A stretch of 64,000 bases of DNA, taken from NCBI RefSeq assembly GCF_004944975.1, contig NZ_SPQG01000006.1, positions 1 through 64,000 on the forward strand, written 5' to 3'. Position 1 is the stretch's first letter. Every line of letters starts with the position of its first letter. The stretch comes from Halorhabdus amylolytica. GTDB taxonomy: Archaea; Halobacteriota; Halobacteria; Halobacteriales; Haloarculaceae. Under the pieces are notes generated by a model. It was not told where the DNA came from. It saw only the letters and a program-made list of their open reading frames with translations, and did not search any database. Below are positions 6,960 through 58,499 of the stretch, piece by piece. The translations under genes and the position numbers were made by a program.

Positions 6960-6982
6960 GAGAAGAGGGGTGGGTAAGCCGA

Positions 6983-7947: not shown

Positions 7948-8514
7948 ATGGCACAGATTCTCGTGTGCTATGGGACCAGCGAGGGGCAGACCGAGAAGAT
8001 CGCCGAGCGGATTGGCGACAGGCTCTCCGAACGGGGCCATCGCGCGCCGGTCAGGAACGTCGACGAAAGCGATCCGGATCCCGGCGGGTACGACGCCGTA
8101 TTGATCGGTTCGTCGATCCATATGGGCGGCCACCAGTCGCCGGTCGAGACGTTCATCACCGAGAACCTCGAGGTACTCGGGGCGCTTCCGACAGGGTTCT
8201 TCCAGGTATCGCTCTCGGCGGCCAGTGACGATCCTGGGGAGCGTGCCGAGGCCGCGAACTACGTCGAAGACTTCGAGGAGTCGACCGGGTTCCATCCCGA
8301 CCGCGTCGGACTGTTCGGCGGTGCGTTGCGGTACTCGAAGTACGGATTCCTCAAACGACTGCTAATGAAACAGATCGCAAAGCGATCGAGCGGCGATACG
8401 GATACCTCGCGGGATTACGAGTACACGGACTGGGGAGAAGTCGACGCCTTCGCCGCCGACTTCGCAGCGTTCGTGGAGGGGCGGCTCGGAGAACGATCGC
8501 CAGGGGAGGAGTGA
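7948..8514 (+). CDS. Flavodoxin-domain protein (HemG-like protoporphyrinogen oxidase family)
   Basis: 188 residues. The FMN phosphate loop is YGTSEGQTEKIAERI near the N terminus. A second flavin loop is at GSSIHMGGHQ, and GLFGGALRYSKYGFLKRLLM lies in the C-terminal half; the last two segments resemble HemG-type oxidases. It is a cytoplasmic flavoprotein that could oxidise protoporphyrinogen or act as an electron carrier. ATG 7948 is used since the fold starts at once. The gene is divergent from the RHH/transporter pair. Confidence 0.82.
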   Translation: MAQILVCYGTSEGQTEKIAERIGDRLSERGHRAPVRNVDESDPDPGGYDAVLIGSSIHMGGHQSPVETFITENLEVLGALPTGFFQVSLSAASDDPGERAEAANYVEDFEESTGFHPDRVGLFGGALRYSKYGFLKRLLMKQIAKRSSGDTDTSRDYEYTDWGEVDAFAADFAAFVEGRLGERSPGEE

Positions 8515-8613
8515 AGATCAGTCACGGACGGTGACGGCTCGGCCACCGCTGTGACCGAGCGATTGATGGGGACTAGAGCAGTATCGAGTGACGAAACGAG
8601 CACTGGTGAGAGT

Positions 8614-9825: not shown

Positions 9826-9848
9826 GCGGGCGGTCGATCGGCGACGGC

Positions 9849-12020
9849 TCAGCCCGCCACGTCCAACTGTCGACCGCCGCCCCGGCGGCCGCCGAGCGTG
9901 ACTACCCAGAGGACGGCGAGTCCGAAGAGGTACGCGAGCGAGGCTGGAACCGCCAGCAGTAGCATCGAGAACATTCCGCCCGGCGTCATGAGTGCCGCCA
10001 CGGCGAAGAACGCGAGGACGACCACGCGCCAGCGCTTGTACATGGCCCGATATGGGACGATGCCGCCGCGGTCGAACAACAGCATCGTCACCGGGATCTC
10101 GGCAAGCAGGCCGATCCCGACAGTCGTGAACACGACCAGCCAGCCGAAGCTGTTGATCCGATAGGCGACGACCATGTGCGCTCCCAGGGCGTCGGCGGCC
10201 AGCCAGGAGATCACCGAAGGAGCGACGTACGTGTAGCCGACGTAACTGCCAGCCGTCAGTCCGAGGACGATCGAGCCACCCCAGACGAGCAACACGCGAC
10301 GGTCGCCGGTGACGAAACCGCGTTCCTCCAGGGCCGGCCAGACGTAATATAACACGAGCGGCAGAACGGCCACGATCGCCAGCAACGTCGAGAACTTGAT
10401 CTCGAAGATGAGGTGCTCGACGGGATGTAGTGCGACGATGTCGACGTCTACGGCCATCTCCGGAGGAAGCCGTGAGACGAAGTCGTTGCGGATGTCACCG
10501 ATCCCACCGGAGTAGAGGTACATGAACGACGCGGCCAGGACGGCCCCGAAGACGGCCACGATCCGGAAGGCCTTGGACGTGAGCGAGTCGACGATGAACC
10601 GCAGGTCATAGAGGTACCCGCCGATGTCGTCCTCGGTGGTCTCCTCCTCGGTGAATGCGTCGACGACGCCCGCCGTCGTCTCGGAGACGACGTTCCCGCC
10701 ATCGTCTGTGGCTTCGGCCCCACTCTCGTCGCTCTCGGCCCGCTCGGTCGCCTCGTCGAAGCGTTCGAGGATGAGTTCGGCCTTCTCGGCCTCGCCGTCG
10801 TCCATGGCTCGCTGGGCGTGAGTCAGCGCCTCCTCCTCGGAGAGAGACTCGAACGCCTCGGGCGGCGCGGCCTCGACGCCGGCCCGGTCTAAGTTGTCCA
10901 GGTCGATCGAACTCGGATCGCCCAGCGCCCTGGCGGCCGGCCCGGCCAGTTCGCTGAGTTGCCGGTTGACGATCCGGTAGCCCAGCCAGGCGACGACGAA
11001 GACGGCCACGAGTCCCGCCGCCAGCGCAGATACGAGGTCGTTGTTCAGTCCCGTCAGCTCCCCCAGCGTGGGGACTCCGATGTCGAACGGAAGGACGGCG
11101 AGGCCGTCGTTGAGGGCCGCGATACCGCCGCGAGCGAAGAAGCCGAAGACGACGGCCGCGGCGAGAAGGCCGCCGCCGGCCAGGACGTTCCAGCGGTCAG
11201 CGAGGGCGGCGGTGACGTCGATCCGCTCGCTGGATCGCTTGGCGACGACGACCGTCCGCGTGATCCGGAGGCTGATAGCGTACAGCCCGACCAGCGGCGT
11301 CGCCCACATGAGCTGGGTGAGCGGATCCGGCGGCGTGAACACCGCGCCGCCGGCGTATAGCCCGAGAACGGCGTACTTCCACTTGTCGCGGAAGGTCTCG
11401 TAGGGGACGATCTCGCTGTAAGCGAGGGTGCTCATCACGAGCGGAAGCTGGGCCGCGATGCCGAACGAAAGCGCGAGCAGGAAGACGAATTGTGCCCACT
11501 TGACGATGTGATAGGTCGGCGTCAGCCCGGCGTTGAGCGCGTTGTTCGCCAGGAAGGCGAACATGATCGGGAAGAAGACAGTGTAGGCGTAGAAGATCCC
11601 GCCGACGAACAGGAGTACCATTGCCAGCGCCAGCATGACGAGTTTCCAGCGGGCGATCGGCGTCTGGGGCCACCAGCCCCGGCGTCTGAGGGCGCCCCGC
11701 GAGAAGTAGACGAAAAGCGGGAGGGCCAGCAGGATCCCGACTGCGAGCCCGATCTTCACCTGCAGGAGGATCACGTCGAAGGGCGTGACAGCGATGACGC
11801 GGGTGGCCTCACGGGTCTCGACGCCCATCTGGGAGAACAGATCGGCCTTCAGTCGGTCCCAGACGTACACCCGCAGGAACCAGATCGAGCCGACGAGTCC
11901 GAGCACGAACGCGATGAATACCTTCTGGAGGTCCTTCTGGGCCGATCGAAGCATCGCACCCATGGTCTCCCGGCCGTTGGCGAGCGTGCGGCGGGTCCCA
12001 TCGTCGAGCGCGCCGGACAT
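9849..12020 (-). CDS. tatCt: Twin-arginine translocase subunit TatC, tandem-fused form (TatCt)
   Basis: 723 residues. Two TatC domains lie in tandem, each with about six membrane helices, separated by an acidic linker (around residues 420-490, rich in AEKAELILERFDEATERAES). This is the haloarchaeal TatCt arrangement, needed because these cells export most secreted proteins folded through Tat. Landmarks are LRSAQKDLQKVFIAFVLG in the first domain and EIKFSTLLAIVAVLPLVLYY in the second. The start is ATG 12020. The gene is divergent from tatCo, 106 bases away. Confidence 0.92.
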   Translation of the reverse strand: MSGALDDGTRRTLANGRETMGAMLRSAQKDLQKVFIAFVLGLVGSIWFLRVYVWDRLKADLFSQMGVETREATRVIAVTPFDVILLQVKIGLAVGILLALPLFVYFSRGALRRRGWWPQTPIARWKLVMLALAMVLLFVGGIFYAYTVFFPIMFAFLANNALNAGLTPTYHIVKWAQFVFLLALSFGIAAQLPLVMSTLAYSEIVPYETFRDKWKYAVLGLYAGGAVFTPPDPLTQLMWATPLVGLYAISLRITRTVVVAKRSSERIDVTAALADRWNVLAGGGLLAAAVVFGFFARGGIAALNDGLAVLPFDIGVPTLGELTGLNNDLVSALAAGLVAVFVVAWLGYRIVNRQLSELAGPAARALGDPSSIDLDNLDRAGVEAAPPEAFESLSEEEALTHAQRAMDDGEAEKAELILERFDEATERAESDESGAEATDDGGNVVSETTAGVVDAFTEEETTEDDIGGYLYDLRFIVDSLTSKAFRIVAVFGAVLAASFMYLYSGGIGDIRNDFVSRLPPEMAVDVDIVALHPVEHLIFEIKFSTLLAIVAVLPLVLYYVWPALEERGFVTGDRRVLLVWGGSIVLGLTAGSYVGYTYVAPSVISWLAADALGAHMVVAYRINSFGWLVVFTTVGIGLLAEIPVTMLLFDRGGIVPYRAMYKRWRVVVLAFFAVAALMTPGGMFSMLLLAVPASLAYLFGLAVLWVVTLGGRRGGGRQLDVAG

Positions 12021-12126
12021 GGCGTTCGATGTGGGTAACAGAACCCTCGTTATCAATTTATCCATCGCCCTGCCCGCGTTGGCGAAAAGAAGGCTTACAA
12101 CGGGTGGGGGCTAACTCGCCGGAACG

Positions 12127-14058
12127 ATGACCGACGGCGACGGCTCCGGGAACGGTGATGGGGGCTCCGATCCCCCGAGAGAGGGGTCGGAAGGGGCCGA
12201 CGAACCCGGGGACGGCGTCGCCGACGAACCGACGGACACGAATACCGACACCGGCGAAGAGAGAACTGAACCCGACGATCGGGATCCTGACCGCCCCGCC
12301 GACTCGAACGAGGAGCGACCGGAAGCATTCGAATCCGACGAGCAACGCGAGAGCGGCGACGAGAGAACGGTTCAGGACGACAGCGAAGGAGCAACGAGGG
12401 ACGACGGGCAGAACTCAACCGAAGACCACCGCAGTGAGGGGGACGGTGGAAGGGCAGCCGAAGACGACGACGGAGAAACCGACGAGGAAGGCGGGGATGG
12501 GGAAGCAGGAGACGGGAGAGAGGAAGGGAGCGACGATGCGGACGAGAAGTCGACCCGGAAGAATGCTCCCCGACGGGAGACGGGACCGAGTCTGGTCCCG
12601 GATGCCGAAGGGCCGAGTGAAGAGGGAGCCGCCAGCGCCGAAGGGCGGGCGTATCGCGGTCCCCCCGAGGGAGAGGCTCCGGTCGGAGAGAGTCCTTCAC
12701 TCGAGGAGGCCGGAGAACACGCACCCGACGACGAGGAGATGCCACTGGCGGATCACGTCGAGGAGATGGTGCGTCGGCTGGGTGTCGTCCTCGTGTTGAT
12801 GGCCGGGGTGAGTGCCGTGATATTCCCGTTCGGCGAGCAGATTATCAACGTGATCTGGTACTCGTTCCTGCCGGGCACCTACGAGCTGTGTCCGACGACG
12901 AGTCAGATACCGACCGATCCCGTCGGCGTGATTACCGCCGCGATGGTCGATGTCGGCGCGGGCCCCGGCGTCACGATGGCCGAGGGGGCGACGATCAAAC
13001 CGGCATGTCCCCGCGTCTACCAACCGCTGGCGACTATCTTCGCCCGGTTCAAGGTGGCGACCCTGGCGGGGTTCGTCATCGCACTGCCGGCGTTCGTCTA
13101 CGAGACGTACCTGTTCATGCGTCCCGGCCTCTATCCACGCGAACGCCGGTACTACCTCGCCGCGGTGCCGACCAGCCTGATCCTGGCGACGGTCGGCATC
13201 GCCTTCGCGTACCTGCTCGTGTTGCCGGCGATCTTCACGTACTTCCTGTACTACTCGGAGGGCGCCGCCGACATCGCCTTCGGCCTGACCCAGACCTTCG
13301 ATCTGATGGTCCTGATGATGGGCTTTTTCGCCGCGATCTTCCAGATCCCGCTTTTCATCATGCTCGCGATCATGATGGGCGTCACCTCCCGGCAGTGGCT
13401 GGCCGACCGTCGGCTGCTGTTCTGGGCTGCCTTCGCCGGGATCGCCTTCATCTTCAATCCGGACCCAACGGGGATGGCGCCGTTCATCATCGCCGCGACG
13501 ATGATCGCGCTGTTCGAGGGGACGCTGCTGTTGCTGTCCTGGACGGGTAGCGAGGGACTGCTTCCTTCCCCGGACGCAGTGGCTGCCCACCGACCGTACG
13601 TCTGGGTACTTGCGGGCGTAGCTGGATACCTCGCCAGTGACACACCGGTCCCCGAGGGCTACTACGAACAACTGCCCGGCCTCCTCCGTGGATTCATCGA
13701 AGGGAACGATCTGGTCGGGATGACGCCCCTCGTCGTGGGCGGAGTGCTCATCGCCGTCTACGAACTCGCCGTGTTCGTGTTACGCCGGTATCTCCCCGTG
13801 GGCGCGTGGCGCCGGAAACTGTTCTCCGGTCGGGTGTCGTTGTTCCGCGTCCGAACGCCAGTCTGGATCGTCTCGCTGGTGATCGGCTATCTCGCCAGTC
13901 CGAACCCGTTCCTGCTGGACCGGGCCGGGACTGTCGGGCTCGAACCAATCGAAGCGGCGGCACTGACGGTCGGCCTGATCGTCACTTTCGAAGTTGCCCT
14001 CGTCGTCTGGCGATATCTCCGCCCGGACGAGGACGAGCAGTTACCCCTAGAACGGTGA
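12127..14058 (+). CDS. tatCo: Twin-arginine translocase subunit TatC (TatCo) with long acidic N-terminal extension
   Basis: 643 residues. Residues 1-204 form an extremely acidic, low-complexity extension. The TatC domain starts at about residue 205 with MPLADHVEEMVRRLG, and the conserved FVYETYLFMRPGLYPRERR loop is present. Four more hydrophobic segments follow the usual six, giving about ten in total. It is the substrate-binding core of the Tat translocon with its partner TatCt. Translation could instead start at ATG 12739, but codon use and composition of the extension look genuinely coding. Confidence 0.9.
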   Translation: MTDGDGSGNGDGGSDPPREGSEGADEPGDGVADEPTDTNTDTGEERTEPDDRDPDRPADSNEERPEAFESDEQRESGDERTVQDDSEGATRDDGQNSTEDHRSEGDGGRAAEDDDGETDEEGGDGEAGDGREEGSDDADEKSTRKNAPRRETGPSLVPDAEGPSEEGAASAEGRAYRGPPEGEAPVGESPSLEEAGEHAPDDEEMPLADHVEEMVRRLGVVLVLMAGVSAVIFPFGEQIINVIWYSFLPGTYELCPTTSQIPTDPVGVITAAMVDVGAGPGVTMAEGATIKPACPRVYQPLATIFARFKVATLAGFVIALPAFVYETYLFMRPGLYPRERRYYLAAVPTSLILATVGIAFAYLLVLPAIFTYFLYYSEGAADIAFGLTQTFDLMVLMMGFFAAIFQIPLFIMLAIMMGVTSRQWLADRRLLFWAAFAGIAFIFNPDPTGMAPFIIAATMIALFEGTLLLLSWTGSEGLLPSPDAVAAHRPYVWVLAGVAGYLASDTPVPEGYYEQLPGLLRGFIEGNDLVGMTPLVVGGVLIAVYELAVFVLRRYLPVGAWRRKLFSGRVSLFRVRTPVWIVSLVIGYLASPNPFLLDRAGTVGLEPIEAAALTVGLIVTFEVALVVWRYLRPDEDEQLPLER

Positions 14059-14080
14059 CGCACTCACCGCCGGCTATCAG

Positions 14081-15082
14081 TTACTGATCGCCAGCCGCCG
14101 GGTACTCCGCGGAGAAGACGTCCGTGAGCGCGTCGGAGGACTCGCTACTCGCGGGTCGTTCCTCCCCGCTTGTGGTTTCCGAGACCTCACTACGCTCGAT
14201 CTCGCTACTCGCGGGTCGTTCCTCCCCGCTCGTGGTTTCCGAGGGGTCACTTCCTTCAACCTCGCTGGCCGGGCTGACGCTCCCTGTGCGATACCCTTCG
14301 AGATCGAGAGTAACGTGTTCGAAGCCCAGATCGCCGATGTGTTCACGGGCCGCCCGGACGAACTCGGGATCCAGGGCCGCCTCCAGTTCCTCGGCACCAA
14401 CCTCGATCCGGGCGATGCCGTCGTGATCGCGGACACGGAATTGCTCGAAGCCCCACGTCCGCAGGACACGCTCGGCCTTCTCGATGCGCGTCAGTTTTTC
14501 TTCGGTGACCTCCAGTCCAGTCGGAATGCGCGAGGACAGACAGGCCATCGACGGTTTCTCGGCCACAGAGAGATCGTAGTATTCGGCGATTTCCCGGACC
14601 TCCTCCTTGGTAATGCCGTGTTCGAGCAGGGGCGAGTAAGCGTCGAGTTCGTCGACGGCCTGGAGGCCCGGACGATGACCATCGCCGGGATCAGAGGCGT
14701 TTGTGCCGTCACAGACGGTGCCGATGCCGAGTTCGTGAGCCCGGTCGAACATCGCCGAGAGGCGCATCGACCGGCAGTGATAGCACCGATCGCCGTCGTT
14801 GGCGACGAACTCGTCGCTGTCGAGTTCGGAGAACGTCACCACGTCGTGGCGAATGCCAATCTCCTCGGCGACGCGACCGGCCTCGTCGAGTTCCGCTTCC
14901 GGGAGCGTTTCGCTTCTGGCCGTGCAGGCGACGGCGTCATCGCCCACCGCATCGGCGGCGATGGCGGCGACGACGCTCGAATCGACCCCGCCGGAGAACG
15001 CGATCAAGACACTGTCGCGCTCGGCCAGGTCTGCACGGGCCGCCGCGAGTTTGTCCTCGACGGTCCGCTGGCTTGATTCCAT
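14081..15082 (-). CDS. larE: LarE-type ATP-dependent sacrificial sulfur transferase
   Basis: 333 residues. The PP-loop ATP motif AFSGGVDSSVVAAIA lies near residues 28-42. LarE hallmarks NDGDRCYHCRSMRLSAM and AEKPSMACLSSRIPTG follow. The family makes a sulfur-modified nickel cofactor precursor or related thio-nucleotide. The C-terminal 60 residues hold an in-frame 60-bp tandem duplication (SETTSGEERPASSE twice), unlike the family. larB and larC are not seen nearby, so the substrate here is uncertain. The start is ATG 15082. Confidence 0.88.
   Translation of the reverse strand: MESSQRTVEDKLAAARADLAERDSVLIAFSGGVDSSVVAAIAADAVGDDAVACTARSETLPEAELDEAGRVAEEIGIRHDVVTFSELDSDEFVANDGDRCYHCRSMRLSAMFDRAHELGIGTVCDGTNASDPGDGHRPGLQAVDELDAYSPLLEHGITKEEVREIAEYYDLSVAEKPSMACLSSRIPTGLEVTEEKLTRIEKAERVLRTWGFEQFRVRDHDGIARIEVGAEELEAALDPEFVRAAREHIGDLGFEHVTLDLEGYRTGSVSPASEVEGSDPSETTSGEERPASSEIERSEVSETTSGEERPASSESSDALTDVFSAEYPAAGDQ
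14141..14243. repeat. 60-bp in-frame tandem duplication in larE
   Basis: Copies at 14141-14183 and 14201-14243 (43 bases each, 60-base period) differ at one position. On the minus strand they encode SETTSGEERPASSE twice in the C-terminal tail of LarE. The unit is a multiple of three, so the frame is kept. Confidence 0.85.
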
Positions 15083-15215
15083 CGCCGTGCGGTAGGGATT
15101 GGACGCGCAAAAGCCCGTTGTCCAGGGGACCCAGTCGCTATCGGTGATCGACGTCCGCCCAGTCAGAATCTGCTGGTTACCGAACGATTACCCCGTGACG
15201 TCCCTCAACTCCACT

Positions 15216-16244
15216 ATGGATCTCTCGCTCGTCGACCTCTCGCCGGTCCCCGATAGTGGCACTGCGACCGACGCCTACGAGAACACCGTCGCCGCCGCAC
15301 GGCAGGCCGAAGCACTCGGCTACTCGCGGTTTTGGGTGGCCGAGCACCACGCGATGGCCGATACTCTCGCGGGAACCACCCCCGAAGTGCTGCTGGGTCA
15401 CCTCGCCGCAGAGACCGACACGATCCGACTTGGATCGGGTGCCGTCCTGCTCAACCACTACAGTCCCTACAAGGTCGCGGAAGTGTTCGGCACGCTCGAT
15501 GGACTCGCACCGGGCCGGATCGACGCCGGTCTCGGGCGGGCGAACGGCTCGCCGGCTGCCGACCGCGCCCTCGGGACCGACCGCCGCGTCGAGAACCCCG
15601 ACGAAGATCACCACGAGAAGATCGACGCAGTCATCTCCCACCTTTATGAGGAGTATCCCGACGAACATCCCTACAGCGATCTGGAGATCCCGCGCTCCGG
15701 TGAGAGAACCCCGGTTCCGTGGGTACTCGGTTCGAGTCCGTCCAGCGCGACAATCGCGGGCGAACTCGGCCTGCGATACTGTTTTGCGGCGTTCATCCGG
15801 CCGCAGTTCGCGACGCGTGCCTTCGAGACCTATCGTGAGCACTTCGAGCCCTCGGAACGTGGTGGCGGCCTCGATGAACCCGAGGGGATGGTGGCAGTAA
15901 ACGCGATCGCCGCCGAAACCGACGAGAAGGCAGCGCGCAAGCGGGCAGTGGCCGAAGCGTCCTTCGAGCGAATGGCCCGCGGGGTCGTCGGCTCGACGCC
16001 CTCCGTGGAGGAAGCGATCGACGAACTCGGCGGCGTACCCGAGCCGACGCCAGCCACCCTCGACGCGGGCGAGTGGCCGCGGGCGATCTCGGGGAGCCCG
16101 GAAACCCTCACGGGATTGCTCGACCAACTCGCCGACCGAGTGGGCGTCGGGGAAGTGATGATCCAGCAAGTCGTCTCCGATCACGCCGACGCGTTGCGAT
16201 CCCACGAATTACTGGCAGAGCGCATCGGGCTCACGTCGTCCTGA
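15216..16244 (+). CDS. LLM-class flavin-dependent oxidoreductase
   Basis: 342 residues, bacterial luciferase-like TIM-barrel family. Landmarks are YENTVAAARQAEALGYSRFW, the AEHH motif after VAEHHAM, LGSGAVLLNHYSPYKVAE, and PGRIDAGLGRANGSP. These enzymes use reduced FMN or F420. A large group (MsnO8-like) shares the AEHH and GSGAVLLNHYSP signatures. No partner genes identify the substrate. I chose ATG 15216; the upstream in-frame 39 residues lack similarity to the fold. Confidence 0.88.
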   Translation: MDLSLVDLSPVPDSGTATDAYENTVAAARQAEALGYSRFWVAEHHAMADTLAGTTPEVLLGHLAAETDTIRLGSGAVLLNHYSPYKVAEVFGTLDGLAPGRIDAGLGRANGSPAADRALGTDRRVENPDEDHHEKIDAVISHLYEEYPDEHPYSDLEIPRSGERTPVPWVLGSSPSSATIAGELGLRYCFAAFIRPQFATRAFETYREHFEPSERGGGLDEPEGMVAVNAIAAETDEKAARKRAVAEASFERMARGVVGSTPSVEEAIDELGGVPEPTPATLDAGEWPRAISGSPETLTGLLDQLADRVGVGEVMIQQVVSDHADALRSHELLAERIGLTSS

Positions 16245-45974: not shown

Positions 45975-48900
45975 ATGCGCGAGGCCGACGAACGCTACTT
46001 CGAGCGCTTAGAAACCGGGCTCGACGAAGCCCTCGAGGTTGCCCGCACCGCTCGACAACGCGGTGACGACCCTTCGACCGACGTGGAGATCCCAGTCGCG
46101 AAGGACATGGCAGACCGCGTCGAGAACATCCTCGGGATCGATGGCGTCGCAGAGCGCGTCCGTGATCTCGAAGGTGAGATGTCCCGCGAGGAGGCCGCAC
46201 TCGCCCTCGTCGAGGACTTCGTCGAGGGATCGGTGGGCGATTACGACACGAAAGCGGGCAAGATCGAGGGCGCAGTCCGGACCGCCGTCGCCCTGCTCAC
46301 CGAGGGCGTCGTCGCGGCCCCGATCGAGGGCATCGATCGCGTCGAAATTCTCGACAACGACGACGGCACGCAGTTCGTCAACGTCTACTACGCTGGCCCG
46401 ATCCGCTCGGCCGGTGGGACTGCCCAGGCCCTCTCCGTGCTCGTCGCCGACTACGCGCGAACCTTGCTGGACATCGAGGAATACCACGCCCGCAAGGAGG
46501 AGATCGGCCGCTACGTCGAGGAGATCGAACTCTACGACGAGGACACCGGACTGCAGTACTCGCCGAAGGACAAGGAGACTCGCCACATCGCCGAGCACAT
46601 GCCGATCATGCTCGACGGCGAAGCCACCGGCGACGAGGAGGTCTCGGGTTACCGGGATCTCGAACGAGTCGACTCCAACAGTGCCCGCGGCGGGATGTGT
46701 CTCGTCATGGCCGAGGGAATCGCCCTCAAGGCCCCAAAGATCCAACGCTATACCCGCCAGCTCGAGGAGGTCGAGTGGCCCTGGCTCCAGGACCTCATCG
46801 ATGGAACGATCGGCGAAGACGACGAAAGCGACGAGGACGCGGTGGACGGCGATGAGGATGAGTGGGAAGAAGACGGAACTCCAGACGAAACAAAGGGGAT
46901 TGAAAATCGTGGAGAAAAGAACTCGCCACCACGCGCAGAACCCTCGAAAAAGTACCTGAGAGACCTTATTGCCGGACGTCCTGTCTTCTCACACCCCAGC
47001 GAATCGGGTGGGTTTCGACTGCGGTACGGTCGCGCGCGCAATCACGGTAATGCAACCGCCGGCATCCACCCGGCGACGATGCACCTCGTCGACGACTTCC
47101 TCGCGACGGGGACCCAGATCAAGACCGAACGTCCCGGGAAAGCAGCCGGGATCGTCCCAGTCGACACCATCGAGGGACCGACGGTCAGACTCGCCAACGG
47201 AGATGTCCGACGGATCGACGACCCGGAGGAAGCGAAGGAAGTCCGCAACGGTGTCGAGAAGGTCCTCGACCTGGGCGAGTACCTGGTCAATTACGGCGAG
47301 TTCGTCGAGAACAACCACCCGCTCGCCCCCGCGTCCTACACTGTCGAGTGGTGGCGCCAGGAGTTCGCCGAGACCGACGCGGATGTCCGGGCGATGGCGG
47401 ACTCCGTGGCGGTCGATCTCGACGATCCCGGCCCGGAGGAGGCTTTGAAGTGGGCCCGGGAGTACGACGCGCCGCTGCACCCGAAATACACCCACCTCTA
47501 TCACGACGTGAGCGTCGAAGCGATCGACGTGCTGGCCGATGCGATCGGCGACGGCGAGGTCATCACCGGGGACGGGGCGGCGATGGCGGGTCGTCAGTCG
47601 GCGGACGCCACGACTGGCGATCTCGTTTTGGCGAACGACGATCCCGTTCGAAAGACCCTCGAATCGCTGCTGGTCGACCATACCCAGACCGACGCTTCGC
47701 TCATCGTCCCAGCCTGGCAACCGCTCGTCGAGACACTGGGGTTCGACGATGACCTGACGCGTACGTGGACGATCGACGACCTCTCCGAACGGGCCCGAAC
47801 CTACGACGACGGCGAGAACGCGATCAGGGCCGTCAACGAGATTTCCTCCTTCGAAGTGCGTGAGCGTGCCCCCACGCGGATCGGCAACCGGATGGGTCGC
47901 CCCGAGAAGTCCGAGGAGCGGGAACTCTCGCCTGCCGTCCACACGCTGTTCCCGATCGGTGAGGCCGGCGGCAACCAGCGTGACGTCGCAAAGGCCGCCG
48001 GCCACGCCGACGAGATGGGTGACGCACCCGGCGAGGTCGAACTCGAAGTCGGCCGTCGCCGCTGTGTCGACTGCGGGACGGACACCTACCGCCCACGGTG
48101 TCCGGACTGTGGCGGCGTCACCGAGTCAGTGTACGTCTGCCCGGACTGCGACCGGGAGGTCGAACCCGACGAGTCCGGGCGGGCAGAGTGTCCGCGCTGT
48201 GAGACGCTGGCCTCGCCGACGCGAGAGACCACGATCGACGTGGGTCAGGAGTACCAGCAGGCCCTGGACGCGGTCGGCGAGCGCGAGGTTGCCTTCGACG
48301 TGCTCAAAGGTGTCAAGGGACTTACTTCGAAGGAGAAGACGCCCGAACCGATGGAGAAGGGAATCCTCCGGGCCAAACACGACGTCAGCGCGTTCAAGGA
48401 TGGGACGGTCCGCTACGACATGACCGACCTTCCCGTCACGTCGGTTCGACCAGCCGAACTCGACGTCACCGTCGAGCAGTTCCGCGAGTTGGGCTACGAA
48501 GAAGACATTCGTGGCGATCCGCTCACCCACGACGACCAGCTGGTCGAACTCAACGTTCAGGACATCGTCCTCTCGGACGGTGCTGCCGAGCACATGCTCA
48601 AGACCGCTGACTTCATCGACGACTTGCTCACCTCTTATTACGGGCTCGAACCGTACTACGAACTCGAAGATCGTGACGATCTCGTCGGCGAACTCGTCTT
48701 CGGGATGGCGCCACACACCAGCGCGGCGACTGTCGGTCGCGTGGTCGGCTTCACCTCGGCTGCCGTCGGGTACGCCCATCCGTACTTTCACGCGGCGAAA
48801 CGTCGGAATTGTGACGGAGATGAAGATTGTGTAATGCTTCTCCTTGATGGACTTTTGAACTTTAGTATAAAATTCTTGCCAGATCAGCGGGGTGGGAGGA

Positions 48901-49556
48901 TGGACGCGCCCCTGGTCATGTCCTCCCGCATCGATCCCGCAGAGATCGACGACGAGGCCCACAACATCGACATCGTCGAGGAGTATCCCCTGGAACTGTA
49001 CGAGGCAACCCGGGAGATGGCCCATCCGGAAGACGTCGACGTCACGATTGCCGAGGATACGCTGGGGACCGACGACGAGTACACGGGGTTCAACCACACC
49101 CACGACACCAGCGATATTGCCCTCGGGCCGGATCTCTCAGCCTACAAGACCCTCGGTTCGATGGAGGACAAGATGGACGCCCAGCTCGAGATCTCCCGGA
49201 AACTCCGGGCGGTCGACGAGAGCGACGTCGCCGAGCGCATCATCGAGTATCACTTCCTGCCGGACTTGATCGGCAATCTGCGGGCCTTCTCGCGCCAGGA
49301 TGTGCGATGTCTGGGGTGCGGCGAGAAGTATCGTCGTGTCCCTCTCACCGGGGACTGCCGGGAGTGTGGCGGCGACGTCAACCTGACCGTCCACGAGGGC
49401 TCGGTCAACAAGTATATCGACACGGCGATCCGTGTCGCCGAGGAGTTCGGCGCCCGGGAGTACACCAAACAGCGCTTGGAGATCCTCGAACGCTCGATCG
49501 AGCGCGTCTTCGAGGACGATACGAGCAAACAGACCGGGATCGCGGATTTCATGTGA
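45975..49556 (+). CDS. polD2: DNA polymerase D large catalytic subunit DP2
   Basis: 1193 residues. DP2 is the catalytic subunit of PolD, the main replicative polymerase in euryarchaea. Landmarks are NVYYAGPIRSAGGTAQALSV, the catalytic region RRNCDGDEDCVMLLLDGLL and RGGRMDAPLVMSSRIDP, and two zinc-ribbon sets (CVDCGTDTYRPRCPDCGG and CLGCGEKYRRVPLTGDC). No intein interrupts it. Two stretches (46875-47054 and 48807-48887) use unusually A/T-ending codons. The start is ATG 45975, 33 bases after the PPC stop. The ending TSKQTGIADFM resembles a PCNA-binding PIP box (QxxIxxF). Confidence 0.96.
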   Translation: MREADERYFERLETGLDEALEVARTARQRGDDPSTDVEIPVAKDMADRVENILGIDGVAERVRDLEGEMSREEAALALVEDFVEGSVGDYDTKAGKIEGAVRTAVALLTEGVVAAPIEGIDRVEILDNDDGTQFVNVYYAGPIRSAGGTAQALSVLVADYARTLLDIEEYHARKEEIGRYVEEIELYDEDTGLQYSPKDKETRHIAEHMPIMLDGEATGDEEVSGYRDLERVDSNSARGGMCLVMAEGIALKAPKIQRYTRQLEEVEWPWLQDLIDGTIGEDDESDEDAVDGDEDEWEEDGTPDETKGIENRGEKNSPPRAEPSKKYLRDLIAGRPVFSHPSESGGFRLRYGRARNHGNATAGIHPATMHLVDDFLATGTQIKTERPGKAAGIVPVDTIEGPTVRLANGDVRRIDDPEEAKEVRNGVEKVLDLGEYLVNYGEFVENNHPLAPASYTVEWWRQEFAETDADVRAMADSVAVDLDDPGPEEALKWAREYDAPLHPKYTHLYHDVSVEAIDVLADAIGDGEVITGDGAAMAGRQSADATTGDLVLANDDPVRKTLESLLVDHTQTDASLIVPAWQPLVETLGFDDDLTRTWTIDDLSERARTYDDGENAIRAVNEISSFEVRERAPTRIGNRMGRPEKSEERELSPAVHTLFPIGEAGGNQRDVAKAAGHADEMGDAPGEVELEVGRRRCVDCGTDTYRPRCPDCGGVTESVYVCPDCDREVEPDESGRAECPRCETLASPTRETTIDVGQEYQQALDAVGEREVAFDVLKGVKGLTSKEKTPEPMEKGILRAKHDVSAFKDGTVRYDMTDLPVTSVRPAELDVTVEQFRELGYEEDIRGDPLTHDDQLVELNVQDIVLSDGAAEHMLKTADFIDDLLTSYYGLEPYYELEDRDDLVGELVFGMAPHTSAATVGRVVGFTSAAVGYAHPYFHAAKRRNCDGDEDCVMLLLDGLLNFSIKFLPDQRGGRMDAPLVMSSRIDPAEIDDEAHNIDIVEEYPLELYEATREMAHPEDVDVTIAEDTLGTDDEYTGFNHTHDTSDIALGPDLSAYKTLGSMEDKMDAQLEISRKLRAVDESDVAERIIEYHFLPDLIGNLRAFSRQDVRCLGCGEKYRRVPLTGDCRECGGDVNLTVHEGSVNKYIDTAIRVAEEFGAREYTKQRLEILERSIERVFEDDTSKQTGIADFM

Positions 49557-52436: not shown

Positions 52437-52880
52437 TTAAGAGCGTTCCTGACCGCCGTCGTTCGGAGCGAGTCTAAATCGAGTCGTCGGTTGACCCGAG
52501 AATCGCGGTCCGTTTCCGGTCTCCATGAACCCCTTCGCTTCGGCCGCTGTCCGGACGGCCTGCTCGTCCTCTGGGACCAGCAGTTCGACTGCCATCCTCT
52601 CTGTTCGAGCGAACCTGATTGGTTCCTCGAGCAATCGTCGACAGACTCGCTCGGAGCCGGCGATCTGGGTGACGTGAACGGTCTGTTCCCGGGCGTCGAA
52701 ACTCACGACCCCGATGATCTGCTCGTCACGTTGGCTCTCGACCGCGTCGTCGGCTTCGATTACTTCGACCGCGACGCGGACCGTCCGATCGTGGACGAGA
52801 TTACGCATCACGTCGGGTGGTGACTCCGTGAGCGACGCCATGTGTTCGGCGTCGGCTTCGACAGCGTCGCGGAGGTGCAT
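52437..52880 (-). CDS. GNAT-like acetyltransferase-fold protein
   Basis: 147 residues. The order LRDAVEADAEHMASLTESPP, GVVSFDAREQTVHVTQIAGS, CRRLLEEPIRFARTE and AAEAKGFMETGNGPRFSG follows the GNAT fold (start helix, central strands, C-terminal AxxxGF). The acetyl-CoA Q/RxxGxG/A loop is weak, so activity is uncertain. The start is ATG 52880, 23 bases before the DUF47 gene on the same strand. Confidence 0.75.
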   Translation of the reverse strand: MHLRDAVEADAEHMASLTESPPDVMRNLVHDRTVRVAVEVIEADDAVESQRDEQIIGVVSFDAREQTVHVTQIAGSERVCRRLLEEPIRFARTERMAVELLVPEDEQAVRTAAEAKGFMETGNGPRFSGQPTTRFRLAPNDGGQERS

Positions 52881-53189
52881 ACAATTTGTTACTAGCTATC
52901 ATCCCTTCAATACTGTCGTTTCACAATTTCTCTCGAGGGCTCGTTCTGGATACACGGTACAACCGTTCGATCTCGATGATCAGGGCTGGTTCGATAGTAA
53001 AATTTAACATATATGTGTAATTGTCTCTGTATCATATGAGGATAGTACCGATACCGGGGGAGATCTTGCGAACCAGTCTCTTCTTTTGACTGACGTTTAA
53101 TGGGCTAGTCACGCTCGGAACCATACCGCTCGTCGTGGTTCTTCCGAGTTTATATATCGATCAGTACACAGCTCGTCGATCAGTTCGGC
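52881..53189. promoter_or_regulatory. AT-rich intergenic region upstream of the membrane-protein island
   Basis: 309 non-coding bases with much lower GC than the flanks (for example ggttcgatagtaaaatttaa, then tctctgtatcatatgagg). A TTTATATA box lies at 53149-53156, some 34-41 bases before ATG 53190, and could start transcription of the island. No inverted repeats or tRNA are seen. The drop in GC marks the left edge of accessory DNA. Confidence 0.5.
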
Positions 53190-53645
53190 ATGTTCGTGGC
53201 ACTTTTGTGGGGCTTGATCGCATCGGGCGTATTACTAGTGGCCGGGGTTGGATTTATTATCCTCCTGGTTGTCCGGATGCTCGTCGTCTACGTCACCTTC
53301 GCGTTGTTACCGGTGTTGATGGGGTTCCAACTCGTCGAAGTCGGCCCCTGGTCGAAAGTGAATCAGATGGGTAAGAAGTTCATCGCGGCGAGTGGGAAAC
53401 TCCTCATCTTCGGGGTGCTCATCACGGCACTTATCTGGGCGAGTACAATAATGATCGACTTCGATCGATACGACTCGTCGGGCGGGACGTTCGCCGGAGG
53501 CACGACAGATCAGGTCCAACCGCCAGCGGGGGAGTTCGGGTCGCCTGGCGGCATTTCGACACTGATAGTTGACTTTTTCAAACTGGTCACGCCACTGTTG
53601 GTCGTCAATTTCCTCGGATTTCAGTACGTGATGGAGGTGATTTGA
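53190..53645 (+). CDS. TrbL/VirB6-like membrane protein, short paralog
   Basis: 151 residues with about four membrane segments. Its region VVYVTFALLPVLMGFQLVEV to SGKLLIFGVLITALIW matches the central region of the two longer paralogs downstream (for example TYGLYPVLIVFWVADAGPLR). It lacks their N-terminal cytoplasmic half and C-terminal tail. It is either truncated by decay or a small partner subunit. It sits one base before the next gene and so is likely co-transcribed. There are no enzymatic motifs. The VirB6/TrbL label is by shape and repeated motif, not by a search. Confidence 0.6.
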   Translation: MFVALLWGLIASGVLLVAGVGFIILLVVRMLVVYVTFALLPVLMGFQLVEVGPWSKVNQMGKKFIAASGKLLIFGVLITALIWASTIMIDFDRYDSSGGTFAGGTTDQVQPPAGEFGSPGGISTLIVDFFKLVTPLLVVNFLGFQYVMEVI

Positions 53646-53646
53646 G

Positions 53647-55047
53647 ATGCTCCTGCAGTACGTCCAGCAGTCAATACTACAAGCAGTCTGCAAGCAGGGG
53701 GGATTGGGACACATGATTGTCCTGGAAAACGTGCGGACAGTCGTTCTTCTGTTCGGCATCAAGGACACGGTTCGATCGATCATCAACGACCTGTTCAACG
53801 CCGTGTTCGATTTCATGCTCGAACTCTTTGGGGATATTACGAGTTCCTTTTTGACGATCGATCCGGCCCAGCTACAGCCGTTCGAAGACATCTGGACAGT
53901 GGGGACACTCGTCTTTTTCAGCTTCCTCACCTTGTATGCTGCCTCGATGCTGGGATTGGCACAGGTTTTTCCAGGCGCTCAGCAGACCGACCCAGCCCGA
54001 TTCTTTTCGAGAGCGCTCGCTGCGACACTCTCTCTGTGGATCGTCAACCCCCCTGGGTGGGGATCGGATCTCTTCTCGAAGGGCGCGTTCGGCTGGGCGT
54101 TCGTCGTCGTGAACGAGATCTGCACGGTGTATCTCGAGCAGGTCGGGACGACTTTCTCGTTTCAGAGCGAGACCCTCGCCGGCGCACTGGGTGGTGGATT
54201 CATTCTCCTCGGGTTCGCGCTCTTCATCGGCGTACCGATACTGGTATTCGAGTTCGTGCTCCTCGCCCTCCTCGTCGCCAGGCAGGTCATCATCTTCTTC
54301 ACGTATGGGCTCTATCCCGTGTTGATCGTGTTCTGGGTGGCCGACGCCGGTCCACTGCGGTACGGCAAGCAACTCTCCTCGAAGCTGTTCAAAACGGCCA
54401 TCACGGCACTGGTCGGCGGTATCCTCTTCGCGGCCGTCTTCACGACGGGCATCGCCCTCATCAGTGGTAATAGTCACGTCTTCGGTGGTGGCGCAGTGAC
54501 CCAGGGGGCGAGTGGGGGTGCCCCCGTCGCGGAGGGCGTGTTCGCGACAGGTTCTTCGAGCGATTACCTGACGACTATCGTCTTCAAACTGATGGTCATC
54601 GGTGCAACGTGTTTGTTACCGACTCTCATGCTGGTCCAGATGTTGGGTGCAATTGGCAGTGGCATCACGTCGGTCGCACGACTGGGTGCCGCCGTCGCGT
54701 CGGGTGGCGCAAGTGTCGCTGCGTCGGGGGCGATGATGGCTACCAAGGAGATGAGCAAGAAAGGCGTCAAGAAGGGGGCCAAATCGGCAGCCAAGAAGGG
54801 CAAAAAGAAGGCCACACAGGGGATCAAAGATCAGGCGAAGTCCGCGGCAAGTACAGCCGCCGAGCGGGCGAATCCCGCCGACAGGGGGAGCGGACGGACG
54901 GGTAGTGGCGATCGCAATTCGGTCCTGAAGCGCAACGCCCCCCAGCTACAACAGTCCCAGCTCTCAGGGAACCAGTTTGACGGCGACGAATCAGCGACCG
55001 ACGAGGATGACGGGACATCGGGCCGGTCGAAATACCGTCGACGATAA
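53647..55047 (+). CDS. TrbL/VirB6-like polytopic membrane protein, paralog B
   Basis: 466 residues. The N-terminal part has amphipathic helices (NDLFNAVFDFMLELFGDITS), then the shared ALAATLSLWIVNPPGWGSDL motif, about six to eight membrane segments with ARQVIIFFTYGLYPVLIVFW, and a long basic, low-complexity cytoplasmic tail (KKGVKKGAKSAAKKGKKKAT then Ser/Asp-rich). This layout resembles VirB6/TrbL proteins of conjugative DNA transfer, but no transfer ATPase is visible. The start is ATG 53647, one base after the previous stop. Confidence 0.65.
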   Translation: MLLQYVQQSILQAVCKQGGLGHMIVLENVRTVVLLFGIKDTVRSIINDLFNAVFDFMLELFGDITSSFLTIDPAQLQPFEDIWTVGTLVFFSFLTLYAASMLGLAQVFPGAQQTDPARFFSRALAATLSLWIVNPPGWGSDLFSKGAFGWAFVVVNEICTVYLEQVGTTFSFQSETLAGALGGGFILLGFALFIGVPILVFEFVLLALLVARQVIIFFTYGLYPVLIVFWVADAGPLRYGKQLSSKLFKTAITALVGGILFAAVFTTGIALISGNSHVFGGGAVTQGASGGAPVAEGVFATGSSSDYLTTIVFKLMVIGATCLLPTLMLVQMLGAIGSGITSVARLGAAVASGGASVAASGAMMATKEMSKKGVKKGAKSAAKKGKKKATQGIKDQAKSAASTAAERANPADRGSGRTGSGDRNSVLKRNAPQLQQSQLSGNQFDGDESATDEDDGTSGRSKYRRR

Positions 55048-55157
55048 CGGCAGGTGAGACGTACAGTCGGAACCGCGATTCACTCGTAGTGACATCGGCT
55101 TTGACAGACATAGCAACCATTAAGTACGCATATGGCACGTATTTGTAACGTACACCA

Positions 55158-57068
55158 ATGGGGGTGCCGTTGGCGGGGACGATCCAGTGGTTGCTCGGCG
55201 GTGTCCCCAGCAACGGCGTCGTGTTGATCAGTTTCGGTCTCGACGCGCTCGTCGAGTGGATCAACACGCAGATTTTCAACGCGGTGTTCACGCTGCTCGG
55301 GTATCTCCTCAACGGGTCGATGCAGGCGTTGTTGCATCTGGAGTCCACTGCACTCAAGCAGTTCCAGGACATGTGGGAGCTGTCGGTGTACGTTTACTTC
55401 GCGCTGTTGACAATCTTTGCGCTGGCCCACCTCGGGATGTTTCAGTTCTTCCCGGACGACAAGAAGTCAGATCCGTACCGGTTTGCCGGGCGTGCGCTGG
55501 CGGCCACGCTGTCGTTGTTCATCGTCAATCCGCCGGGGTGGGGACCGACGCTGTGGGGTCGGGGACTGTTCGCGGCGGCCTTCGAGGTATCGAACGCGAC
55601 AATCGACATGTTCCTGGAGTCGACGACGTTCACAGTGTCGGCGAGTCCGAGCACGGGTGGGGTGGGGTCGTTCGTACTGTTGTTGTTCGGCGTCGTGATG
55701 GGGTTGATCGTCACTGTCGGGCAACTGGTCATGTTCGTCGTATTGATCGCGCGGAAGGTGATCGTCTACCTGACGTACGGCCTGTACCCACTGCTGATCG
55801 TGTTCTGGATCGGGGAACTCGGCCCACTCAAGTACGCGAAAGCGGTGGCCGAGAAGCTGTTCAAAGCGACGGGGATGTTGATCCCCGGTGGCATCCTGAT
55901 CGCGGGCGTGTTCGCGGTCGGGATGGAGTTTGCGACGGGATCGCTGGCGATGCTGGCCGGCGGGTCGGTCGACTCGGGCGGAGTTGACGCGGCGTTCGCG
56001 TCGGGGAGTAGCATGCATCCGTTGCTGGCGGCGGCGATGCCGTTGATGGCGGTGACGGCGATGAATCTGGTGGCGATCACGTACGTCGTCAAGTGGTTGA
56101 GCGGTGCGATGGGCGGTGCGGCCAGTGCGATGACGGGCAAAGCGAAGAGTGCGATGAAGGGTGGGGCGAGCAAGGCGAGCAGTGCGGTGTCGGCTGGCGC
56201 AGGTGGCGGCATGGTCGGTGGGATGACCGGCGGCGGCGACCGGACGGCAGTCAACAACCAGTTTGGCGGTGGGTCACCGGCCCCAGCGGGCGCTGGCGGC
56301 GGTGGCGGTCGTGACGAGGAGGGTCAGTCTCAGACGGTCAACGATACCGCGCCAGACCTGGAGCAGACGCCAATGTCGGCCCTCGATAGTGACCGCCTGG
56401 TCGAGGGCGACAGCGACTGGCAGGGATACACCGAGCCGACGACCGGTGGGGAATACGCGTCACCGGAGAGCGAGTCCGAGACATCTACCGAGGACGATTC
56501 AGCGTCGACAGAGAGCACCGAATCGTCCGAAGGGTCCGAGGAGTCACTGTCGGATCTGGAGAACCCGAAGGCGTCGGATATCCACTTCGAGGAGATCGAG
56601 CGCGAGGAGATGGGCGAAGCGATGACGAAGATGGACGACGAAGAGCGGGGTAAGTTGCTCTACGACGTGATGAACAAATCACGGACGGTGGACAATGCCC
56701 AGGGTGATGACGGGAACAAATACCTGCGTGGGCTCGGTGGAGATGCAGTGAAGGGGGCGGTAGGGACTGGAGTAGGGATAGCAGCAGCGGGTGGCGCGGC
56801 GCCGATGGTAGCGGCTGGCGCGGTAGCAGGTGCAGCAGTGCTCGGCGCTGGCCAGGGGATCGCTGGGACTGGAATGGAATCGATCACGTCGAAAATCGGC
56901 CAGGGGAAGGACCTGAAGAACTCGCTCACGAGTGAGCTATCAGAGTTCAAGTCGGAGATACAGGGCTGGGGCAACGAGGGCTCGGTGAAGACGGCGGGCT
57001 GGCGGACGGGCGAAAGTGGGGCTGGGAGCAGCGAATCGGATGGATTTGATGGGGATGATTACGTATGA
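55158..57068 (+). CDS. TrbL/VirB6-like polytopic membrane protein, paralog C
   Basis: 636 residues. It shares with paralog B the FNAVF helix, the ALAATLSLFIVNPPGWGPTL motif and VIVYLTYGLYPLLIVFWIG, with about eight membrane segments ending near residue 320. The tail is Gly/Ala-rich with GGMTGGGDRTAVNNQFGGGS, an Asp/Ser-rich acidic stretch, and an Ala/Gly-rich possible helical hairpin near residues 530-575 (AAGGAAPMVAAGAVAGAAVL). It has its own gap of 110 bases with TATA-like tracts. The start is ATG 55158. Its stop overlaps the next gene (ATGA). Confidence 0.65.
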   Translation: MGVPLAGTIQWLLGGVPSNGVVLISFGLDALVEWINTQIFNAVFTLLGYLLNGSMQALLHLESTALKQFQDMWELSVYVYFALLTIFALAHLGMFQFFPDDKKSDPYRFAGRALAATLSLFIVNPPGWGPTLWGRGLFAAAFEVSNATIDMFLESTTFTVSASPSTGGVGSFVLLLFGVVMGLIVTVGQLVMFVVLIARKVIVYLTYGLYPLLIVFWIGELGPLKYAKAVAEKLFKATGMLIPGGILIAGVFAVGMEFATGSLAMLAGGSVDSGGVDAAFASGSSMHPLLAAAMPLMAVTAMNLVAITYVVKWLSGAMGGAASAMTGKAKSAMKGGASKASSAVSAGAGGGMVGGMTGGGDRTAVNNQFGGGSPAPAGAGGGGGRDEEGQSQTVNDTAPDLEQTPMSALDSDRLVEGDSDWQGYTEPTTGGEYASPESESETSTEDDSASTESTESSEGSEESLSDLENPKASDIHFEEIEREEMGEAMTKMDDEERGKLLYDVMNKSRTVDNAQGDDGNKYLRGLGGDAVKGAVGTGVGIAAAGGAAPMVAAGAVAGAAVLGAGQGIAGTGMESITSKIGQGKDLKNSLTSELSEFKSEIQGWGNEGSVKTAGWRTGESGAGSSESDGFDGDDYV

Positions 57069-57838
57069 TGGAAAATAACACAAAGAAAAGAAGGATGAGT
57101 GCTGAAGTGGTCGGACACAAAGAAAGTGACTGTGGTGTTGAGGTGTTTGACGAGAGGGGTAATAGACACGTAATTACAATTGAATGGGATGGACACATCC
57201 AGAGACATTCTCAAGAATCATATCCCCACGAACCAGCCGACCGAACGTTCGAAGAGCAGAAGCTGATGACGCAGGTCGAGGAGCGGGCAAAACTCGCGGC
57301 CCAACAAGAATTTCCGGATGCAGATATTCTGCCGGCCGAGTGGATCCCGGAAGAACTCAACCGGGCGATGCTGGCCTTAGAGAAACTGCACGTGGACGAC
57401 TTTGCCGAGGAGTTCGAGGAGTGCTATCGAATGCTCACCAATCCGGCCTCGGTCCCAGAAGTACCAGAAGACTCGGCAGAGATCATCTTCGCACCATTCC
57501 TCGTCAACGAGGACGACGAGGTGGCGTACGTGCCGACGCCAGTAATCAAATACCGCGACGAGTCTGGCGAGGCTCACTACACCCACAAGGAGTCGCGATA
57601 CGAGGAACTACTGGACGAACCGCATTTGACGAAATTCCCGGTTACGCTACCACCGCTGGAATTCAAAGATGGGGACTACGAATTCCCGGACGGGTTCCAG
57701 ATATTCATCATCGAGCATCTGCTGGCCCAACTCAGAGATGTTTATCGCCACGTCGGTGAGGAACCGCCGGAGTACTGCAAGGAAACGGACATCTGGGGCA
57801 AGCCACTGACGACAGAAGACGAGGAATACTACGACTAG
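57065..57838 (+). CDS. Acidic cytoplasmic protein of the membrane-protein island
   Basis: 257 residues with no membrane segment. The first 55 codons are unusually AT-rich and contain the conserved-looking block HKESDCGVEVFDERGNRHVI, then IEWDGHIQRHSQESYPHEPADR. The rest is acidic and helical (QVEERAKLAAQQEFPDADIL, ALEKLHVDDFAEEFEECYRM). The start ATG 57065 overlaps the previous stop (ATGA), which couples translation to paralog C. Function is unknown; the composition break suggests a chimera of two sources. Confidence 0.65.
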   Translation: MMENNTKKRRMSAEVVGHKESDCGVEVFDERGNRHVITIEWDGHIQRHSQESYPHEPADRTFEEQKLMTQVEERAKLAAQQEFPDADILPAEWIPEELNRAMLALEKLHVDDFAEEFEECYRMLTNPASVPEVPEDSAEIIFAPFLVNEDDEVAYVPTPVIKYRDESGEAHYTHKESRYEELLDEPHLTKFPVTLPPLEFKDGDYEFPDGFQIFIIEHLLAQLRDVYRHVGEEPPEYCKETDIWGKPLTTEDEEYYD

Positions 57839-58068
57839 TGACGACAAGCGTGGTGTGTGATGGCGTTGGACGGTCGATTTACACGACGCCGGACTTAGAG
57901 CAGTCCTCACTGGGGGAGTACAGCATGGGCGGCATCGGTGGATCGATCGCGGGACCAATTGGGGCCGGAGCGATGGCAGGCGGATTGATGGGCGGAGGCG
58001 ATCAGACGGCAGTGAACAATCGGTTTAATAGGAGACCGATATCACCAGCGGTTCGACCTGAGTCGTGA
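57838..58068 (+). CDS. Small glycine-rich protein sharing a motif with paralog C
   Basis: 76 residues. It starts at GTG 57838, which overlaps the previous stop by one base. It contains AGGLMGGGDQTAVNNRFNRR, near-identical in part to the tail of paralog C (GGMTGGGDRTAVNNQF), and TTPDLEQSSLG, similar to another tail segment of C (TAPDLEQTPMS) but in swapped order. It may be a broken copy of C or a small partner. I cannot tell which. Confidence 0.45.
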   Translation: MTTSVVCDGVGRSIYTTPDLEQSSLGEYSMGGIGGSIAGPIGAGAMAGGLMGGGDQTAVNNRFNRRPISPAVRPES

Positions 58069-58499
58069 CTGTCAATGAGTCGAAACATATTGGGGGTGGT
58101 GAACCAACCTCTCAGACAGCGGATTACTATCCAGTAATTCGATTGGGGGACCTAACACAGCGGTCAAATAGGCTCGCTCCGATAGCTGTTGACATGTACG
58201 TCTCCCCAGCCGTCAAATCGATCAGTCGACGTCCGATCGAGGGTGCGTCGGTGACGGTGCTGCTCCGAGTTGCTGATGGGACCGACGTGGATACTGTCGG
58301 AGATGCGGTTCGTGAAGTGGGTGGCACCGTCGAATCGGAACTGCAGTTCAGGACACTGATGGTTTCGGTAGCTCACGAGGACCTTCCGGCAGTTTGTGCG
58401 ATCGATGGTATCGAATCGATCGAGACCAAGAATACGCTGGCGATCGACGCCGACGGCGCGGGCGAAGACGTCGAACAACACCGTTTTCCGGAGAACTGA
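58065..58499 (+). CDS. Small protein with I9-like (subtilisin propeptide-type) fold pattern
   Basis: 144 residues. GTG 58065 overlaps the previous stop (GTGA). The core SVTVLLRVADGTDVDTVGDA, then EVGGTVESELQFRTLMVSVA and AVCAIDGIESIETKNTLAID has the strand-helix-strand-strand-helix-strand pattern of inhibitor I9 propeptides. No protease gene is adjacent. It may be a standalone inhibitor or chaperone, or an unrelated ferredoxin-like protein. It is the last of six co-oriented genes. Confidence 0.5.
   Translation: MTVNESKHIGGGEPTSQTADYYPVIRLGDLTQRSNRLAPIAVDMYVSPAVKSISRRPIEGASVTVLLRVADGTDVDTVGDAVREVGGTVESELQFRTLMVSVAHEDLPAVCAIDGIESIETKNTLAIDADGAGEDVEQHRFPEN

Follow-up and report, generated by a model that had tools for sequence, protein, structure and literature searches.

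The 64,000-nucleotide stretch of Halorhabdus amylolytica DNA analysed here (RefSeq assembly GCF_004944975.1, contig NZ_SPQG01000006.1, positions 1 to 64,000; "the window") contains a small island of membrane-protein genes, A, B and C, in which gene C ends in a polymorphic C-terminus (CT) and is followed at once by a gene for a partner protein that varies with it. Comparison with related haloarchaea revealed how such loci are built, how they are related to VirB6, VirB4 and pilin proteins, how C-termini and partners co-vary and are stocked as cassettes, and what a deletion has removed from the window copy. Our best reading, to which we give a probability of about two in three, is a machine resembling a type IV secretion system (T4SS), whose VirB6-like subunit would carry polymorphic toxin domains matched by immunity proteins; the island would then be a degenerate copy of a haloarchaeal locus for contact-dependent antagonism. 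The original prediction, drawn from the window alone, had described a six-gene island of VirB6/TrbL-like paralogues lacking a transfer ATPase, and did not include the polymorphic C-terminus with its cognate downstream gene, which is the main feature of the locus.

Polymorphic C-terminus and its partner

The C protein consists of a membrane domain (residues 1 to about 345), an acidic linker and the polymorphic CT (about residues 470-636). Its membrane domain is mostly 82-98% identical among the window and two genomes of the same genus, G070 and G069. Past residue 390 or so, by contrast, the window and G070 remain alike (type 1) while G069 is unrelated (type 2), with a CT identity of 15-40%. The same switch of type was found inside another genus, between G013 and G036. 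The C-termini measure approximately 130-170 residues and include a mostly uncharged, Gly/Ala-rich hydrophobic stretch of about 40 residues. The AlphaFold model of C (predicted local distance difference test, pLDDT, 34) was not used.

In intact loci, the region downstream of C is made of repeated units, each comprising a spare C-terminus, which in some cases includes part of the conserved 3' region of C, and a partner of about 240 residues. Four such units stand in tandem in G070 and four in G069, and orphan CT-partner cassettes were found in G070, G069, G013, G036, G091, G046, G031 and G007, with one decayed cassette in the window.

Seven genomes supplied 19 CT-partner pairs on which co-variation was evaluated. 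The similarity matrices of C-termini and partners were correlated (r 0.77), a value reached in none of 20000 shuffles, including when shuffling was confined within genomes. Clustering of the C-termini and of the partners gave the identical partition, which only 27 of 50000 within-genome shuffles matched; when restricted to the remaining, dissimilar pairs, the relation was weaker (rho 0.35). Coupling to the CT resides in partner residues 80-240, approximately (r 0.86 for residues 91-200), and not in residues 1-60. These first 60 residues (window positions 57098-57275) are swapped freely between modules, independently of CT type, and have been exchanged even across genera, with 72% identity between the partners of G070_C and G046_C. 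The locus thus displays a variable C-terminus on a conserved carrier, a co-varying downstream gene and orphan cassettes, the features by which polymorphic toxins are recognised. The downstream gene co-varies as a cognate immunity gene would, and protection by its product is predicted.

Co-variation of this kind would also be expected from entry exclusion or kin recognition, in which C would be a VirB6-like mating protein and the downstream protein would read its variable end in a partner cell and block transfer between cells of like type, with no killing. TraG-TraS of F/R100 offers a precedent: TraG is likewise a polytopic conjugation protein, with a membrane-spanning N-terminal domain, and a variable stretch (17% identity between F and R100) sets the specificity for its cognate partner TraS (PMC9797247). 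TraS is a membrane protein, however, whereas the partner described here is soluble, and no VirD4-type coupling protein was found in G070, G069, G091 or G209. Exclusion does not predict the tandem and orphan cassettes either, nor the frequent position of partner-family genes beside DUF4157 effectors (see below). We therefore consider an exclusion system unlikely, and less likely than a toxin-immunity system.

VirB6/TrbL relationship of the membrane proteins

Genes B and C are intact, and their products share 38% identity (E 5e-58) as well as the motifs ALAATLSL-IVNPPGWG and TYGLYP-LIVFW. Three motif-bearing paralogues had been announced; this holds for B and C, while the first open reading frame (ORF) is the 3' half of gene A, lacks ALAATLSL and has the second motif only in a divergent form, TFALLPVLMGF.

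Scanned directly against Pfam, neither C nor B gave a TrbL/VirB6 match. In profile comparison (hhalign), their membrane domain matched 25 haloarchaeal relatives of TrbL_3 (PF19590) with 95% probability (E 3.9e-8, 242 columns) and divergent TrbL_3 members with 96% (E 4.5e-9); these divergent members include a protein from another conjugation-like locus of the source genome. Controls with reversed profiles, shuffled columns and an unrelated permease all remained below 1%, the unrelated membrane control at 0.1%. With only the core TrbL_3 subset as target the domain scored 0.4%, while the divergent members matched that core at 99.6%; the link therefore runs through divergent haloarchaeal members. 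The A protein matched the C/B profile at 99.4%. The VirB6/TrbL resemblance, proposed earlier as a guess that profile searches could refute, is supported by these comparisons, and the membrane domain of B and C is a probable VirB6/TrbL homologue. A 1302-residue hypothetical protein with a VirB6-like N-terminal part was also observed on a plasmid of Salinibaculum sp. KK48 (L006, 14833-18738), with no partner-family gene noticed alongside.

Intact loci in related genomes

In G070 and G069, an intact island occupies the chromosomal site that corresponds to that of the window island. Its order is a VirB3-like gene (164 residues), a gene for a 588-residue protein and a VirB4 ATPase gene (787 residues), then, on the opposite strand, genes for an Ig-like surface protein (606 residues), a pilin (119 residues) and a Lon-like protein (246 residues), followed by A (311 residues), B, C and the cassettes. 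The gene set, with A-B-C order conserved, was found in G070, G069, G013, G036, G007 and G209, the last of which belongs to another family and was read from inside VirB4 onward; in G091 it is rearranged. The VirB4 protein matched the TraG P-loop (E 3e-11), NF045971 VirB4 (E 3e-62) and PDB entry 4ag5 (E 3e-11), the G070 pilin matched T4SS_pilin (PF18895) above the family cut-off (E 9e-7), and the Lon-like protein of G013 matched Lon_C. The label "VirB3-like" is a putative one, given for size, membrane nature and place beside VirB4, with no family match. The two marks of a VirB-type T4SS, a VirB4 and a VirB2-type pilin in the locus, are thus present in relatives and both lost in the window. This membrane protein family of T4SS type is rare, occurring in 12 of 392 sampled genomes (six genera, two families).

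These genes raise the possibility that the island is what remains of an integrated conjugative plasmid, a decayed relic whose VirB6 proteins and hypothetical proteins served DNA transfer alone. VirB4, pilin and VirB6 relatives, horizontal acquisition (see below) and relaxase and coupling-protein genes near the G036 locus all fit such an origin. Yet the intact islands of G070, G069 and G209 contained no recognisable coupling protein, relaxase or integrase. VirD4-type coupling proteins (PF02534, PF10412) were indeed absent at E 1e-5 from the whole genomes of G070, G069, G091 and G209, in searches whose positive controls worked, which argues against plain conjugation. No relaxase was matched by Pfam among the island proteins scanned, and no whole-genome relaxase search was made. 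As such a relic would moreover leave the polymorphic CT-partner cassettes unexplained, we regard it as improbable, and as the least credible of the alternatives weighed here.

Other conjugation-like genes were observed in these genomes. Two other VirB4 loci of the source genome are only 31-32% similar. Two conjugation-like loci of that genome (C25, in L051, about 5300-15379; C2:5695-12534) encode VirB4, a TrbL_3 protein and an ORF weakly resembling VirD4, and are distant relatives of the island machine. In G036, VirB4, a relaxase and a TrwB-like coupling protein lie beside the VirB6-cassette island (L045, 1205-9980) and possibly belong to its mobile carrier. The left end of the G070 island (L037/L038, reverse-complement 12538-13147) bears a second copy both of the flanking host gene and of roughly the initial 260 bp of the TRAM gene, with 89% identity to the window's TRAM gene; this resembles a rearranged or duplicated target, and no integrase was seen.

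Partner protein and its family

The partner is soluble by hydropathy (maximum 19-residue mean 0.75) and was modelled as a globular alpha/beta fold (pLDDT 84.8) with no match in PDB or BFVD. In scans against Pfam, NCBIfam and PADLOC, B, C and the partner gave chance-level matches only. The partner family was found in 53 of the 392 sampled Halobacteria genomes, representing 25 of 86 genera, and is often multicopy; 122 of 167 members, from 72 loci in named genomes, lie directly behind an ORF with eCIS_core/DUF4157. At one locus, L079, the DUF4157 effector preceding the partner-family gene adjoins a contractile sheath and tube. By contrast, eCIS_core/DUF4157 was detected neither in C, nor in the source genome, nor in the genomes with an intact T4SS-type locus, and positive controls worked. 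Its absence there and the position of the family behind DUF4157 proteins elsewhere point to one immunity-like family that serves two unrelated machines, one T4SS-like and one contractile. At three loci (L074, L075 and L083, in G230, G198 and G175 respectively), long head-to-tail runs of partner genes occur with no effector genes between them; in L074 and L075 these runs follow a single DUF4157 protein, and they are possibly immunity-only arrays.

Haloferax elongans is reported to lyse H. volcanii on contact, and effectors of this class have been studied in Halogeometricum borinquense: toxicity was shown there for four toxins, including three DUF4157 proteins, and in each case the downstream gene counteracted it (PMC11566945).

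The partner could alternatively be a chaperone or loading adaptor shielding the hydrophobic CT before export, as Eag does in the type VI secretion system, in which case the CT may still be an effector. In line with this, a single soluble family pairs with many C-termini that are very hydrophobic and have a common hydrophobic stretch, and the N-terminal 60 residues or so of the partner, not being CT-specific, could dock to a common machine. CT-partner specificity is high, however, and the family is also used with the DUF4157 effectors of another, unrelated machine, and effectors of that class have neutralising downstream partners. We judge a chaperone role slightly less likely still than entry exclusion.

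Degenerate island of the window

The island of the window, about 5.3 kb long (52881-58193; Table 1), was delimited by comparison with same-genus genomes, in four of which the site is empty and window positions 52873-52880 are directly joined to 58194-58395. The announced drop in GC at the upstream end was confirmed (0.51 versus 0.58-0.70 around).

Table 1. Features of the island and its borders in the window.
Feature	Position	Strand	Remarks
VirB3-like gene remnant, island left end	52881..53159	+	5' part only, premature stop, low GC
Deletion junction, 3-bp overlap	53157..53159	.	two blocks collinear with G070 and G069 in blastn
Gene A, 3' half, truncated VirB6-like paralogue	53160..53645	+	readable ORF 53190-53642, 151 aa
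Gene B, VirB6/TrbL-like polytopic membrane protein, 466 aa	53647..55047	+	intact
Gene C, 636 aa	55158..57068	+	intact; VirB6/TrbL-like domain, acidic linker, polymorphic C-terminus
Acidic soluble partner, 257 aa, predicted immunity protein	57065..57838	+	start overlaps C by 4 bases
Decayed spare C-terminal cassette remnant, 76-aa ORF	57838..58068	+	GGGDQTAVNNRF junction
Flanking host gene, about 101 aa, PHROG 33046-like	58195..58499	+	right border, outside island

At the left end, the VirB3-like remnant has DNA 80% identical to the G070 gene (profile match E 3e-12), and its premature stop is seen in the translation LRTSLFF*LTFNGL. Window positions 53000-53159 correspond in blastn to the 5' part of the VirB3-like gene of G070 and 53157-57867 to A-B-C, two blocks which in G070 lie 8.5 kb apart with VirB4 and other genes between them. 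An 8.5-kb deletion has thus fused the VirB3-like gene to the middle of gene A, removing VirB4, the pilin, the Ig-like and Lon-like proteins and the 5' half of A. What is left of A shows 89% amino acid identity to A of G070 and matches the A profile with E 2e-58, A being 309-332 residues long in relatives. The island had been described as lacking a transfer ATPase. Indeed neither VirB4 nor TraD nor a relaxase is present in the island of the window, but the missing ATPase is a result of the deletion, which removed VirB4, and not a property of the system; related genomes, where a linked ATPase was to be looked for, have VirB4 in their intact loci.

On the right side, three coupled downstream genes had been proposed. 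The 4-base overlap between C and the 257-residue partner is real, whereas the 76-residue ORF is a cassette remnant and the 144-residue ORF does not belong to the island: it is a flanking host gene, starting near 58195 and present in relatives and at empty sites, including those of G068 and G071. With that start, the overlaps given for the last two ORFs have no biological meaning. A viral or proviral origin was considered and set aside, as no relative was found in IMG/VR or phage records and the PHROG match concerns the flanking host gene.

Synonymous divergence (dS) from G070 was 0.30-0.40 in A, B and both domains of C, against 0.91 in the flanks; the island has therefore spread horizontally. 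The ratio of nonsynonymous to synonymous divergence (dN/dS), likewise against G070, was 0.11-0.18 for B (0.14), the C domains, the A remnant and the partner, and purifying selection thus acted on the island genes until recently. The window copy is degenerate; it is probably unable to assemble a working machine alone. Its C and partner genes may persist as a spare, donor or immunity module, or may be in early decay.

Elsewhere in the window, DNA polymerase II large subunit is 1193 residues long (45975-49556), compared with 1676 in G070 (L038, 29729-34759); the extra length in G070 suggests one or more inteins absent from the window.

Proposed mechanism and comparison with known systems

From a mechanistic point of view, VirB4 would power a pilus or channel made of the VirB2-type pilin, the VirB3-like protein and three VirB6-like proteins. 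The C protein would act both as a channel subunit and as the carrier of an effector, its CT. On contact, the CT would be delivered to the neighbouring cell, perhaps after cutting by the Lon-like protease of the locus, and would insert into the membrane of the recipient. The protein encoded directly downstream would be the cognate immunity protein, shielding the producer and its kin, and recombination with the tandem spare cassettes would permit a change of type. Toxicity, membrane insertion, the export route and protection by the partner are predictions of this scheme. In its strongest form, a VirB6-like channel subunit that itself carries interchangeable membrane-attacking domains and shares its immunity family with effectors of contractile machines, the proposal is a tentative one, to which we grant somewhat less than an even chance.

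Several points weigh against the toxin-immunity reading. Searches of Pfam, PHROGs and NCBIfam found no known toxin domain in the CT. The C-termini gave 17 matches to DUF4157 effectors, while reversed sequences gave 7 and locally shuffled ones 0.3, so that this likeness is weak and appears partly compositional; the CT of the window gave none. Since reversed sequences also match, direct homology between CT and DUF4157 effectors was dropped as support, and the link to these effectors is drawn from homology of the partners alone. The tie to the tested immunity proteins of H. borinquense is one of shared position behind DUF4157 effectors, their membership in the partner family being putative, and our genome scan for the partner family brought up no H. 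borinquense locus. A channel subunit is an unusual toxin carrier, and secretion of the CT is a prediction. Immunity proteins against pore-formers are often membrane-bound, while the partner is soluble.

Polymorphic toxins, bacteria-killing T4SS and haloarchaeal toxins of contractile injection systems (CIS) are already known. Like polymorphic toxins such as those of contact-dependent inhibition (CDI), Rhs and MafB, the present system associates a conserved N-terminal trafficking part with a variable C-terminus, an immediate downstream cognate gene and spare cassettes (Zhang et al. 2012, PMC3482391), but its carrier is a VirB6-like channel protein of an archaeal T4SS-like locus, with no known toxin domain. 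That survey noted that classical polymorphic toxins apparently do not use T4SS and that archaea generally lack such toxins. With the DUF4157 effectors of haloarchaeal CIS (PMC11566945) it has in common the partner family standing directly behind many effectors, but here it is a VirB6-like protein that bears the CT, in genomes where no DUF4157/eCIS_core was found. The bacteria-killing T4SS of Xanthomonas and Stenotrophomonas also combine a VirB-type machine with effector/immunity pairs; their effectors, however, are soluble proteins in their own right, which VirD4 recruits through an XVIPCD signal (PMC6536674), unlike the VirB6-fused effector proposed here, with no VirD4 found in four of the genomes. 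From TraG-TraS, discussed above, the present locus differs also by its cassette arrays. Finally, Ced of Sulfolobales is an archaeal T4SS-like set with VirB2-, VirB4- and VirB6-like proteins, but it imports DNA, and neither C-terminal polymorphism nor immunity-like genes have been described for it (PMC11868833); VirB4 of the intact loci matched CedB weakly (E 2e-4). In the literature searched, whose scope excluded the key survey of archaeal polymorphic toxins (Makarova et al. 2019, mBio), no archaeal VirB6-like protein with a polymorphic end was encountered; a prior listing in that survey is possible.

Implications

Archaeal antagonism is known from few systems. The unnamed partner family occurs in about one in seven of the sampled Halobacteria genomes, and two unrelated delivery machines would draw on this one immunity-like family. 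Its specificity is directly testable, as the residues that couple it to the CT have been located in its central and terminal parts. If the proposed reading is true, some archaea would attack neighbouring cells by means of a relative of the bacterial machine for DNA exchange.

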